A DNA stretch of 11,513 bases from Arthrobacter sp. (GTDB lineage Bacteria > Actinomycetota > Actinomycetes > Actinomycetales > Micrococcaceae). The stretch is taken from contig JAODMS010000092.1 in assembly GCA_025464925.1 (NCBI GenBank), positions 1 through 11,513 on the forward strand. Direction: 5' to 3'. This document shows positions 1,955 through 9,721 of this stretch, piece after piece. The notes below the pieces were generated by a model that had not been told where the DNA came from, did no database searches, and worked only from the letters and a program-made list of their open reading frames with translations. The translations under genes were made by a program, and so were the position numbers. How positions within the stretch are numbered: the first letter of the stretch is position 1; every line of letters starts with the position of its first letter.

Positions 1955-2188
1955 TCAGCCTAGGCTACGCCCGGTGAGCCGGGAATGATATAGCCCCCAA
2001 CGTACGCCGGAGCCATTGAGGTGAACGACGTATCGATGCCCAAGAAGGCGTTCTTCTTTGATTCCTGCCCATGCCCACCAGGGCGGTTGACCGCCTAGCA
2101 ACTTTTGGTTCCAAAAAGCCGTTTGCACCAGATTCAAAAGGGAGTTGGCCTTTACCCCTTGGGAGTAGACCAGGCCATTTGGGAGCAT
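1955..2188 (-). CDS. Doubtful hypothetical protein, possibly truncated
   Basis: An open frame of 77 residues from an ATG at 2188, rich in Trp and Leu (AFWNQKLLGGQPPWWAWAGIK, then RYVVHLNGSGVRWGLYHSRL). The stretch between 2100 and 2190 looks less GC-rich than its surroundings, which suggests imported DNA. No ribosome binding site is visible before 2188, and the frame stays open upstream to 2383 with an unconvincing sequence. It could be the 3' end of a truncated gene or a chance frame. Confidence 0.3.
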   Translation of the reverse strand: MLPNGLVYSQGVKANSLLNLVQTAFWNQKLLGGQPPWWAWAGIKEERLLGHRYVVHLNGSGVRWGLYHSRLTGRSLG

Positions 2189-2388
2189 CAGGCGCCCAAG
2201 GGCTGACACGCCCCTGACCTGGGCACGGCTCTGTCTCTCAACCCGCGGGATGTGAGGCAGTCCGGCGAGACAGCAGTGCCGTCCCGGTACTCCGCGGCGC
2301 CGGGTGTCTTGCCACCGTGTATCGCAGCCTCCTGCTGGCTTTGGTGGCGTGGGTATTGGTTGCAAGACACTTGCGGGGCCCACATGGG

Positions 2389-2602
2389 AAACTGATTGGC
2401 TCTGCGCTGGTCTCGACCAGGGCCCAGGACTCCGGCCGGCAGATCCGGGACCTGCTCGGCGCCGGGGTCCGCCGGGGTGATCTCTACACCGACCACGGGG
2501 TCAGCGGGGCGCGGGCGGCCCGGCCGGCATTCAATCAGGCCCTGGAGGACGCCTTCCGCCGGGGACTTCCACCTGGCCATTGACGTGAAGCGTGTGTGGT
2601 GA
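2389..2602 (+). pseudogene. Serine recombinase fragment, frameshifted
   Basis: Frame 1 reads KLIGSALVSTRAQDSGRQIRDLL, then DLYTDHGVSGARAARPAFNQALEDA, the N-terminal catalytic half of a serine resolvase/invertase. The nucleophile serine corresponds to the TCG at 2413, but the conserved arginine in the usual YARVS motif is leucine here. After about 2560 the homology moves to another frame (AGDFHLAIDVKRVW, equivalent to the usual GDTLVITTLDRLGR) and stops at 2602. The rest of the catalytic domain and the DNA-binding helix-turn-helix are missing, and no in-frame ATG precedes the homology. It is a dead remnant and differs from the intact resolvase at 9173-9721. Confidence 0.8.
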
Positions 2603-5224: not shown

Positions 5225-5691
5225 CTACCGCAACGCGGCGGCCGGCGCGGTGCGTTCGGCTTTGAATCGTTCTGCCGGGGTGTCGTAGTCGAGGGTCTTC
5301 CGTGGCCGTTCGTTGAGTTCACGCATCACGTGAGAGACGTGCGCAGCGCTGTGAACCGCGAGGTTGGTGCCCTTGGGGAAATATTGGCGGGCCAGCCCGT
5401 TAAAGTTCTCGTTAGCGCCGCGCTGCCAGGGACTGGAGCGTTCGGCGAAGTAGACCGCAACGCCGGTCTTCTTTGTTAGTTCCTCGTGCCAGGCCATTTC
5501 CACGCCCTGGTCCCAAGTGAGTGTTCGCTTCAGGTGCGTTGGCAGCTTCGCTAACGCACCTGACGGCGGCCGCGTTGACGCTCGCAGCGGTGTGATCCAG
5601 AGGCAGATTCACGATGATGCCGTATTGGGTTTTCCTTTCCCTGAGTGTCATCATCGCCGAGACTGACCCGACGCCGACGATGAAATCCCCC
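5225..5691 (-). pseudogene. IS30 transposase, catalytic C-terminal part, frameshifted
   Basis: The DDE integrase core of an IS30 transposase. From the IS110 junction it reads GDFIVGVGSVSAMMTLRERKTQ (first catalytic Asp in EGDF) and LPLDHTAASVNAAAVR. A single extra base near 5558 then shifts the frame, and homology resumes as LAKLPTHLKRTLTWDQG (second Asp), EMAWHEELTKKTG and SPWQRGANENFNG (catalytic Glu), ending with NERPRKTLDYDTPAERFK. All three catalytic residues are still encoded, but not in one frame. The N-terminal part lies beyond the IS110 element at 7153 onward, with about 85 residues missing between the two. Confidence 0.9.
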
Positions 5692-5695
5692 TCCT

Positions 5696-5701
5696 TACGG
5701 T
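5696..5701 (+). promoter_or_regulatory. -10 half of the circle-junction promoter (left end)
   Basis: TACGGT lies four bases after the CT core. When the element ends are joined, it is placed 17 bp downstream of TTGACA in the right end, forming a complete sigma-70-type promoter. In the integrated state the upstream DNA is IS30 sequence and no -35 box is seen, so the RNA should be expressed mainly from the excised circle. Transcription would begin near 5708. Confidence 0.7.
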
Positions 5702-5708
5702 GTTGTTG

Positions 5709-5892
5709 TGGGTGATTTCGGGGCTGTCGTAGTGTTCCGATCACCCTCGGGTGGCGGGTAGGCCCAGATCTCCCTGCGCGCTGGGACGGCTTACTGGGAA
5801 TGGCCGCCCGCTGCCCGCCGATGACCCGACCGCTGATTGAGACTTACGACATTGATCGTTGGGTAAGGACGTGCCGGCGTGGTTATCGACAG
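5709..5892 (+). ncRNA. Bridge RNA of the IS110 element
   Basis: The leader folds into the three parts known for IS110 (IS621-type) bridge RNAs. 5' stem-loop: GGGTGAT (5710-5716) with ATCACCC (5740-5746). Target loop: stem GCGGG/CCCGC (5754-5758 with 5807-5811) plus GGCC/GGCC (5761-5764 with 5802-5805). It encloses left guide AGATCTCCCT (5766-5775), which pairs with the bottom strand of target AAATCCCCCT with two wobbles, and right guide ACTGGGA (5793-5799), complementary to TCCCAGT at the right flank. Donor loop: stem GCCGATGACC/GGTTATCGAC (5817-5826 with 5881-5890, 9 of 10 paired). It encloses left guide ATTGAGA (5836-5842), identical to the right element end, and right guide GTAAGGA (5863-5869), complementary to TCCTTAC at the left end. 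The order of guides is that of IS621. RNA ends are estimates. Confidence 0.85.
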
Positions 5893-5933
5893 GGCCAACG
5901 AAAAATGGGAGCTGATCGAAGGGACCGAAAGAC

Positions 5934-7136
5934 ATGCCGGCATTGTGGGCAGGAATCGACTCGGGCAAGAGAGCCCATCACTGCGTCGTGATCGACCAGG
6001 CGGGGACGGTGCTGCTCTCGAAACGGGTCGAGAACGACGAGACCGTGCTGCTGGAGCTTATTGCCACGGTCGCCGGGCTCGCCGGCCGGCGGTGAGGTCT
6101 GCTGGGCCACGGATCTGAACGCCGGCGGCGCGGCGCTGCTGATCGAGCTGTTGGCCGCGCACGCGCAGCGGCTGCTCTATATCCCCGGACGGATCGTGCA
6201 TCACGCCGCGGCGACCTACCGCGGGGATGGCAAAACCGACGCGAAAGACGCCAGGATCATCGCCGACCAGGCACGCATGCGCACCGACCTCCAGCCCGTG
6301 CGCGGTGCGGACCAGATCAGCGTGGACCTGCGCCTGCTGACCGCCCGCCGCACGGATCTGGTCTGTGACCGGGTCCGGGCGATCAACCGGCTCCGGGCCA
6401 CCTTGCTGGAGTACTTCCCTGCTCTTGAGCGGGCGTTCGACTACTCCAAGAAGGCCCCCTGATCCTCCTGGGCGGCTACCAGACTCCAGAAGGCATCCGG
6501 CGGATGGGTTTGACCCGGCTCGCCGGCTGGCTCAGGAAACGCGGCTGCCGGAACAGCGCCAAGATGGCAGAGAAGGCACTTGAGGCCGCGAACGCCCAGC
6601 ACACCGTCCTGCCGGCCCAGTCCACGGGCTCGGCACTGGTCGTCCGGCTGGCCGGGCAGATCAGCGCAACCGACTCAGAGATCGCCGACGTCGATGCCCA
6701 GATCACGGACGTCTTCCGGCAGCACGACAGCGCCGATGTTCTGCTGAGTCTGCCTGGGTTCGGACCCGTTCCCGCGGCAACGTTCCTCGCGAACATCGGC
6801 GGCAACCTGAACGGGTTCGACACTTCCGACCGGCTCGCCAGCGTCGCCGGGTTGGCTCCGGTCCCACGCGATTCCGGCCGGATCAGCGGCAACCTGCACC
6901 GGCCGCGCCGGTTCAACCGCAGGCTTCTGCGGACCTGTTACCTCGCCGCCCTCTCCAGCCTGAAAAACAGTCCCGCATCCAGAACCTACTACGACCGGAA
7001 ACGAAGCGAGGGAAAGTCCCACAAGCAGGCGCTCATCGCCCTGGCCCGGCGCCGCATCAACGTCCTCTGGGCCATGCTCCGCGACCACACCACCTACCGG
7101 GAACCAACGCCAAAGATCACCGCCCAGGCGGCTTGA
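5934..7136 (+). pseudogene. IS110 recombinase, two frameshifts
   Basis: The recombinase would be about 400 residues. It starts at the ATG at 5934 (MPALWAGIDSGKRAHHCVVID, first RuvC-like Asp) and runs to about 6090, where one extra base gives a stop at 6093-6095. The middle continues in the next frame (CWATDLNAGGAALL, then GKTDAKDARIIADQARMR with the remaining acidic residues) until a missing C in the C-run near 6458 gives a stop at 6460-6462. The last part returns to the first frame (LLSLPGFGPVPAATFLANIG, APVPRDSGRISG with the likely catalytic Ser, then KQALIALARRRINVLWAML) and ends at 7136. The first domain is DEDD RuvC-like, the second is the Transposase_20 domain with the serine nucleophile. 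The +1 and -1 changes cancel, so sequencing error in GC-rich runs is a possible alternative. Confidence 0.9.
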
Positions 7137-7138
7137 CA
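7133..7138 (+). promoter_or_regulatory. -35 half of the circle-junction promoter (right end)
   Basis: A perfect TTGACA overlaps the recombinase stop codon and lies 12 bp from the right core. With the two-base core and three bases of left end it sits exactly 17 bp from TACGGT at 5696-5701. Known IS110 elements rebuild a promoter across the joined ends in this way. Confidence 0.7.
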
Positions 7139-7152
7139 GAAACATTGAGATT

Positions 7153-7447
7153 CCCAGTGGCCTGCCTCTAGACGGTTGAGTTTGCGTTGCACGAGGGTGC
7201 GCAGCCGGGCGTTGGCAACGAGCTTATGCACTTTTGGTCGGGCCCGTTGCAGCCGGGCGTCGTGATCGGCAGTGCGGGGCAGGTAGAGGCCCTGTGCGTC
7301 CCGATGACGGTCCAGTTCCCGTTTGATCGTGGAGGCGTGACGGCCAAGCTCGGCCGCGATGCGCCGCATCGAGTGCCCCAGCCGCAGCAGGTCCGCGATC
7401 CGCAACCGCTCCCGCGCATCCAGGTAGCGGCCCGCGGTTACGGACGG
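7153..7447 (-). pseudogene. IS30 transposase, N-terminal helix-turn-helix part
   Basis: The minus strand reads VTAGRYLDARERLRIADLLR, then GHSMRRIAAELGRHASTIKREL, the helix-turn-helix typical of IS30 transposases, then RPKVHKLVANARLRTLVQRKLNRL. Immediately afterwards comes EAGHWE, which in intact members lies about 85 residues further on (WSPEQI... to ...PGHWEGD), so an internal deletion has removed that stretch at about 7170. Reading continues into the IS110 right end. The start is uncertain: a GTG at 7447 is near the conserved part, and the frame is open to 7528, where it overlaps the DUF3892-like gene on the other strand. Confidence 0.88.
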
Positions 7448-7499
7448 CACTGTGATGGGTGGGATCTGGAAATTGCTGGCTCGACGCAGCTGCGTCCCC

Positions 7500-7658
7500 G
7501 TCGAATGGATCGACGTCAAAAAGGGCACAGCCTACGTCGGGAGCGGTCCACACAAGGCATATGTAGGCGTTGTAACGCCCGAGGGCCGGTCGCCCTACCT
7601 GCGCTCATATGCCGACAAGGAGTGGAACAACAATCTGCTCTCGTTGCCCCACTTTTAG
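7500..7658 (+). pseudogene. DUF3892-like protein, 5'-truncated
   Basis: The frame reads VEWIDVKKGTAYVGSGPHKA, then YVGVVTPEGRSPYLRSYADK and EWNNNLLSLPHF, matching the second half of DUF3892 proteins (small proteins of unknown function ending in a YLRTYADG-W--NLL-LP-F motif). About 35 N-terminal residues are missing: the open frame extends to an ATG at 7452, but that part overlaps the IS30 end and has no family resemblance. The lost 5' half is not seen on the other side of the IS30 element, so the locus was rearranged as well as interrupted. Confidence 0.7.
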
Positions 7659-9172: not shown

Positions 9173-9721
9173 CTAGAGGAGGTACCGGTAAACCGTGGCG
9201 CGGGAGACTCCGAGCATCTTGCCGATGTCGGAGGCACTGCCCCCTTTGCCTTTGAGTTGTCTGGCCCGGGCAGCGGCCGCGTCATCGACTTTGCGGGGCC
9301 TTCCGCCGCGGCCGTTGTTGGCCGCGGCGGCAGCGAGGCCGGCTCTCGTGCGTTCGATCATCGTGTCACGCTCCAGTTGCGCGAACGCGGCCATAATCGT
9401 CAGCATGGCGGTGCCCATGGGCCCGGTCGTGTCGAGTCCTTCGGTCAGGGACCGGAAGCCTGCTCCCCTCTCCCGGATGTTCTCGATGATGTCCAGGACG
9501 TGCCTAGTGTTGCGGCCCAGGCGGTCGAGCTTCCACACGGTGAGCACGTCGCCGGCCTCCAGCCGGTCCAGAGCTCTGGACAGCTGAGGGCGTTCGACCG
9601 TGGACCCGCTGACGCCGTTATCGGAAAAGGTCCGAGCTGCGCCGGCGGACTTGAGTGCAGTGAGCTGCAGATCGAGGTTCTGTTCCGCAGTGGAAACCCT
9701 CGCGTACCCGATTACAGCCAT
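9173..9721 (-). CDS. Serine recombinase (resolvase/invertase family)
   Basis: A complete 182-residue small serine recombinase that would carry out site-specific recombination, most likely resolving transposition cointegrates. The catalytic domain begins MAVIGYARVSTAEQNLDLQL with nucleophile Ser10, followed by LEAGDVLTVWKLDRLGRNTR and the long E helix FAQLERDTMIERTRAGL. A basic hinge (GRGGRPRK) leads to a C-terminal helix-turn-helix (ASDIGKMLGVSRATVYRYLL). Every expected part is present and it has normal length. GGGGA lies about 8 nt before the ATG. The 250 bp upstream hold a 38-bp palindrome (possible recombination site) and a transposon-end-like sequence, which together suggest it belongs to that transposon. 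Confidence 0.95.
   Translation of the reverse strand: MAVIGYARVSTAEQNLDLQLTALKSAGAARTFSDNGVSGSTVERPQLSRALDRLEAGDVLTVWKLDRLGRNTRHVLDIIENIRERGAGFRSLTEGLDTTGPMGTAMLTIMAAFAQLERDTMIERTRAGLAAAAANNGRGGRPRKVDDAAAARARQLKGKGGSASDIGKMLGVSRATVYRYLL

Follow-up and report, generated by a model that had tools for sequence, protein, structure and literature searches.

The window, an 11,513-nucleotide stretch of an Arthrobacter sp. contig (JAODMS010000092.1) analysed at its full length, carries an IS110-family element of 1,458 bp at positions 5693-7150, inserted into an IS30-family transposase gene that is read from the opposite strand. The element, its non-coding leader and the two flanks comprise the following features (window coordinates, then strand).

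5225-5692, -: C-terminal portion of the IS30 transposase split by the insertion; also frameshifted, with NF033563 matched in two reading frames
5683-5692, +: left target AAATCCCCCT, with the core CT at 5691-5692; pairs with the left target guide through 8 Watson-Crick and 2 wobble pairs
5693-5701, +: left end; the right donor CCTTAC at 5693-5698 is the complement of the right donor guide
5696-5701, +: TACGGT, a -10-like hexamer of a putative promoter in the circular form
5709-5892 (approximate extent), +: bridge RNA, with a 5' hairpin, target loop and donor loop (covariance model match at 5742-5891)
5766-5775, +: left target guide AGATCTCCCT
5793-5800, +: right target guide ACTGGGA(A), core included
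5836-5842, +: left donor guide ATTGAGA, equal to the right end at 7144-7150
5863-5869, +: right donor guide GTAAGGA, complement of the left end
5934-7136, +: IS110 transposase gene in three frame pieces, 5934-6083, 6085-6459 and 6447-7136 (Pfam; tblastn with the pASPHE301 protein)
7133-7150, +: right end, with TTGACA (-35-like) at 7133-7138 and the left donor ATTGAGA at 7144-7150
7151-7158, +: core TT and right target TTCCCAGT, pairing with the right target guide
7151-7528, -: N-terminal portion of the same split IS30 transposase, internally gapped (PF13936 HTH_38; blastn against L113)

Both IS110 domains were matched, PF01548 (DEDD) on the first two frame pieces and PF02371 on the third, and 14 bases separate the transposase stop codon from the right core. 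The cores differ between the two junctions, CT on the left and TT on the right. On the IS30 side, the N-terminal piece at 7151-7528 gave no NCBIfam match. The window is rich in mobile-element debris, given an open resolvase (PF00239) at 9173-9721 on the minus strand and a frame at 2317-2583 that resembles a resolvase fragment by eye.

The window copy is damaged. Two frameshifts in the transposase were located by tblastn. In its leader, a U present in all other rows of the first alignment is missing after GGUA, and the inner hairpin of the target loop contains one additional G. The host IS30 gene carries one frameshift and a gap of about 250 bases relative to L113, an empty site in a relative of the gene broken here (blastn, 74% over 575 aligned bases on the left and 75% over 274 on the right). 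Elsewhere in the window, three genes have reading frames that are uninterrupted across their domains, which would make local decay a likelier cause of these defects than errors in sequencing. Given two transposase frameshifts, two leader indels and a broken host IS30, the window copy is probably dead, that is, inactive by itself at present.

As relatives of the element we took the best 80 of 170 matches to the C-terminal half of the transposase in a one-genome-per-species collection, together with four plasmid stretches. We aligned 28 leaders without reference to structure, the window being among the 28 rows from which the covariance model was built. The consensus of this alignment has 37 pairs, 14 of which show compensatory change (both sides changed and the pair kept in at least one sequence), a number that rises to 21 of 37 on the structure-fitted alignment. 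The model gave 78 matches in 76 of 85 sources, the window leader scoring 160 bits (E = 4e-32); an opposite-strand match in L007 (E = 0.0018) was dropped as spurious, leaving 77 rows. Nine sources gave no match (L012, L016, L029, L067, L041, L045, L048, L055 and L084): the leader of L012 contains Ns, and in L016, L029 and L067 the locus starts too near to hold a leader. Among the 71 distinct rows of the fitted alignment, 96.1% of cells were paired, versus 88.7% in shuffled alignments and at most 46.7% with slid partners, and none of 500 shuffles reached any of five pairing measures. Under stricter filters, the model was found at E = 1e-10 or better in 14 of 197 genomes of one relative's family.

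Folding of single sequences was set aside as evidence. The window leader folded alone gave z = -1.82, with 11 of 200 shuffles folding equally well, and the leader of a relative gave z = -0.65; since these values are unconvincing against shuffles, the case for structure rests on the alignment. The first-pass annotation had proposed the stems from the window itself and named their loss among relatives as one observation that would speak against it; the relatives keep them, with the compensatory changes given above. Its suggestion of a search with public covariance models bore no fruit, as no Rfam family matches the leader and an Rfam scan of the window returned two sub-threshold matches, none of them within the leader. 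We thus observe a conserved two-loop RNA in the long non-coding left end, upstream of the recombinase gene as in IS621-type elements and not downstream of it as in the IS1111 group. Its two internal loops hold the four guide segments, first the left and right target guides and then the left and right donor guides, as had been read from the window sequence alone.

The donor guides of the window match the right and left ends of the element as had been claimed: the left one (ATTGAGA) is identical to 7144-7150 and the right one (GTAAGGA) is the reverse complement of CCTTAC (5693-5698) extended by the core T in front of it. Across the relatives, six bases of the left end agree with the right donor guide in 63 of 66 readable rows (exceptions L047, L057 and L070), and seven bases of the right end agree with the left donor guide in 50 of 52, the two exceptions (L066 and L083) being read out of register. 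Near-constant motifs served to locate the ends, which accounts for much of this agreement; for the left ends these motifs were sequence patterns, a few of them written after viewing rows (L011, L047, L057 and L070). The varying letter also agrees: the right donor guide changes in step with left ends CCTTAC, CCTTAA, CCTTAT and CCCTAC, and the left donor guide with right ends ATTGAGA and ATTGGGA.

When right end, core and left end are joined, TTGACA appears in 58 of 62 elements, a count that is uncontrolled by shuffling and comes from a search motif that favoured TTGAC; TTGACA is also present where the right end was located by the guide alone. In 50 of the 62, the best -10-like hexamer follows after 17 bases, mostly as TACNNT and usually with three of six consensus letters, again as a count uncontrolled by shuffling. 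In IS621, a promoter is described as forming across the joined ends, and the arrangement found here resembles that junction promoter (PMC11208160).

Some right ends depart from the common layout. L017 and L019 lose the right end beyond TTGACAAAGAC, where both continue with one and the same unrelated sequence, so something else has cut into the same place. Extra DNA of 0.6-2 kb lies between transposase and right end in some relatives outside the IS30 class, namely L030 (3600-5617), L044 (3600-5728) and L068 (3600-4250). By eye, it holds an acetyltransferase-like protein and an IS3-type transposase pair in L030, a long secreted-looking protein in L044 and an unknown frame of 160 residues in L068, and would appear to represent passenger genes or nested insertions.

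The window element and 31 relatives are inserted at one codon boundary, GHWE/GDL (the slash marking the insertion point), of IS30-family transposases. Read in the IS30 frame, the left flank of the window and of the 31 relatives with a readable left junction encodes GD followed mostly by a hydrophobic residue, apart from DD in L040 and the shifted end of L011. On the other side, WE stands at the junction in 27 of the 29 elements with a right end, mostly as GHWE (GLWE in L020, GNWE in L005), and the right flanks of L006 and L083 read differently. The Asp of GHWEGD is presumably the first catalytic acid of the IS30 DDE domain. The IS30 halves of two clean cases fit NF033563 at 1-137 or 138-267, and the rve domain match of the C-terminal half is reported from profile position 23 onwards. 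The copies nearest the window share ancestry, so that the 32 IS30 insertions cannot all be counted as fully independent tests.

It is conceivable that the site is chosen by the protein alone, or that insertions elsewhere have been lost to selection and IS30 genes are simply dispensable landing places. IS30 genes are indeed repeated and dispensable, and surviving insertions could be enriched in them. However, survival would not fix one base position across IS30 genes that differ as widely as these (median identity 54% among 27 left halves and 42% among 25 right halves), and related transposases with other guides use other sites; we therefore regard this explanation as very improbable. A similarly slight chance attaches to the idea that the IS110-in-IS30 arrangement goes back to a single old composite that was passed on or spread as a whole, with no repeated targeting. 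All IS30-targeting members do form one clade, a few pairs share a left flank (28 distinct 14-base left flanks among 32), and two Rhodococcus copies, one on a plasmid and one chromosomal, look alike. Yet the interrupted IS30 genes differ: among pairs that match, identity reaches 90% in 2 of 304 for the left halves and in none of 288 for the right halves. Empty sites exist as well. On the diversity of the IS30 genes, a single inherited composite was judged unlikely.

The reading we prefer, that the RNA directs the element to these codons, was examined by comparing target guides with insertion sites. Guides were read at fixed columns of the model, and the junctions supplied the flanks. The score covered 8 bases in the best of five registers for left guides and 7 bases in the best of three for right guides, a wobble pair counting one half and swapped pairs being given equal register freedom. 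From the rows with both junctions (62 of 77), 18 representatives were chosen that amount to 17 distinct guide classes, as two of them (L007 and L011) are both of the IS30 class. Their own left site scored on average 7.08 of 8, versus 3.98 for the sites of other elements, and their own right site 6.53 of 7, versus 4.01 for swapped sites. None of 20,000 permutations reached the observed sum on either side, and the own site was the best in its row for 16 of 18 representatives on the left and 17 of 18 on the right.

Beyond the representatives, the left score was at least 6 of 8 in 64 of 75 rows with a left flank, and the right score at least 5.5 of 7 in 59 of 64 rows with a right flank. The poorest left fits (4 of 8 or less) were L033, L044 and both copies of L031; L077 was weak on both sides and had the poorest right fit (4), and right scores of 5 of 7 were found in L006, L083, L030 and L036. 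Six IS30-class rows (L001, L006, L008, L009, L020 and L040) had left scores of 5 or 5.5. Covariation of guides and insertion sites among relatives, put forward in the first-pass annotation as a test of its reading, is thus borne out with few exceptions, as is its match of the target guides to the flanks of the window, where 7151-7158 is the full reverse complement of the right target guide including the core. That a bridge RNA programmed the window insertion, as a matter of history, is well supported. The location in an IS30 transposase gene, the target shared with relatives and the two transposase frameshifts go beyond what that annotation mentions. The least probable explanation, that the transposase gene simply has a regulatory leader acting in cis, with guide matches due to chance or to shared descent of leader and ends, draws on the non-significant single-sequence folding and on donor guides and ends that may be co-conserved for other reasons, and fails on target flanks that are not descended from the element, yet follow the guides across 17 distinct guide classes, and on guide segments that lie in two internal loops in the IS621 order.

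One locus among the poor fits has an unusual arrangement. L031 carries two differing bridge RNA leaders head to head, at 1976-2134 (-) and 2235-2394 (+), separated by about 100 bases, and the left guides of both fail to fit the junction they share. Perhaps two left ends meet here after a rearrangement.

Within the IS30 class, guides and sites disagree mainly where the code is degenerate. Over eight codon-aligned left positions there are 52 differences in 31 rows (L011, whose left end differs, was left out of the position table); 46 fall on the third letter of an Asp, Gly or Glu codon. On the right side, the third position of the His codon differs in 15 of 29 rows and a position beyond it in 11. 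At the fourfold-degenerate Gly position the guide has U in 18 and G in 14 of 32 rows and never A or C; this pattern is suggestive only because the guides are related, the 16 distinct guides dividing into 9 with U and 7 with G. No tendency of the guides to track the synonymous letters at their own sites was detected in the IS30 class (184.5 versus a permuted mean of 179.7, sd 3.5; 504 of 5,000 permutations as high, n = 28). The 32 elements combine 16 distinct left guides with 28 distinct left flanks of 14 bases within a single known protein motif, which lets the mismatches tolerated in nature be mapped at each position.

We also searched 100 genomes, from the family of one relative, with a predicted-site pattern read off the codons, ATCNCCYTCCCARTG. 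It occurred at 17 sites in 14 genomes, versus none for the reversed pattern, and the motif was uninterrupted at all 17. Fourteen sites lie in an IS30-type frame, 12 by tblastn and two (L118 and L123) by the in-frame motif; L109, L110 and L120 lie outside IS30 frames. IS30 genes are to be expected among these matches, because the pattern encodes the motif; what counts is the scarcity of other matches.

A quick tree built on 81 C-terminal pieces of the transposase, from which L055 and L066 (short frames) and L082 were omitted, places 31 IS30-targeting rows, the window included, on one side of a single branch. L012, L016 and L029, whose IS30 target is known from the right flank only, fall on the IS30 side, and the other 47 rows lie opposite (SH-aLRT 99; midpoint rooting was used for drawing). 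On these two observations, insertion at GHWE/GD and one transposase clade, we propose an IS30-targeting IS110 clade. By their titles, its hosts are Micrococcaceae, Microbacteriaceae, Nocardiaceae, Mycobacteriaceae, Pseudonocardiaceae and Propionibacteriaceae, with single rows from Intrasporangiaceae, Kineosporiaceae and a metagenome-assembled Bifidobacterium. Among the titles, abstracts and passages of open-licence papers covered by our search, none reports such a clade, which is weak evidence. In 26 of 31 relatives the leader is followed by an open frame of at least 400 codons, and these are candidate systems.

Taken together, we put the probability at about 0.92 that this is an IS621-type IS110 element with a bridge RNA leader aimed at the HWEGD codons of IS30 transposases, its programme being kept by a clade in Actinomycetota. 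The testable defining features of the IS621 mechanism are present in the window element, and by analogy with IS621 we infer transcription, recombinase binding and strand exchange. In the circular form, the joined ends would make a promoter (TTGACA, 17 bases, TACGGT) that transcribes the bridge RNA. Its donor loop would pair with the joined ends and its target loop with both target strands around a two-base core (CT or TT), after which the recombinase would swap strands. The target would be the H-W-E-G-D codons of an IS30-family transposase, so that insertion splits the IS30 protein between E and G. More tentatively, at slightly below even odds, the lineage could be a specialised RNA-guided parasite of IS30 across families of Actinomycetota, one that reads HWEGD at fixed codon positions, tolerates third-position mismatches and keeps only the wobble-capable G or U at the fourfold position, and that could in this way insert into and disable almost any IS30 transposase gene it meets there. 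The clade serves as a naturally replicated example of bridge RNA targeting within Actinomycetota, in which one mobile element is programmed against the coding sequence of another.

Targeting of another mobile element is already known for IS4321. Judging by the title of their 2003 paper, Partridge and Hall reportedly described the targeting of Tn21-type terminal inverted repeats by IS4321/IS5075. Those elements, of a related family, are also mentioned in PMC11187229; they belong to the IS1111 group with subterminal inverted repeats, and aim at the end of a transposon instead of at codons of a transposase. IS900 of Mycobacterium avium subsp. paratuberculosis is likewise an IS110-family element with a fixed site, for which PMC8141618 gives the motif CATGNNNNNNTCTCCTT and insertions mostly outside coding sequences. 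This motif resembles the guides and sites of L032, L037, L043 and similar relatives, whereas the guides of the window clade differ from it. On its other strand, CATGNNNNNNTCTCCTT looks like a ribosome-binding site followed by a start codon. The sites of L052, L058 and L059, such as AAAAGCTAAAT/ATCCTTCGGGCTTT, look like halves of intrinsic terminator hairpins, so another clade may aim at terminators.

ISKrh6 of Kocuria rhizophila could be a member of the clade by its family (IS110), its Micrococcaceae host and its length (1,476 bp versus 1,458 bp in the window); the account of ISKrh6 in PMC12500396 reports no IS30 target. The closest likeness is to IS621, as described in PMC11208160, with which the window element has in common the IS110 family, the RNA in the left end upstream of the recombinase gene, the guide order, the pairing rules, a CT-like core and, putatively, a promoter across the joined ends. 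The two differ in host phylum, in the right donor guide, which forms seven contiguous pairs in the window element and follows a discontiguous pattern in the description of IS621, and in the target, which is described as REP-type for IS621 and is a protein-coding motif of IS30 transposases in the window clade (PMC11208160).
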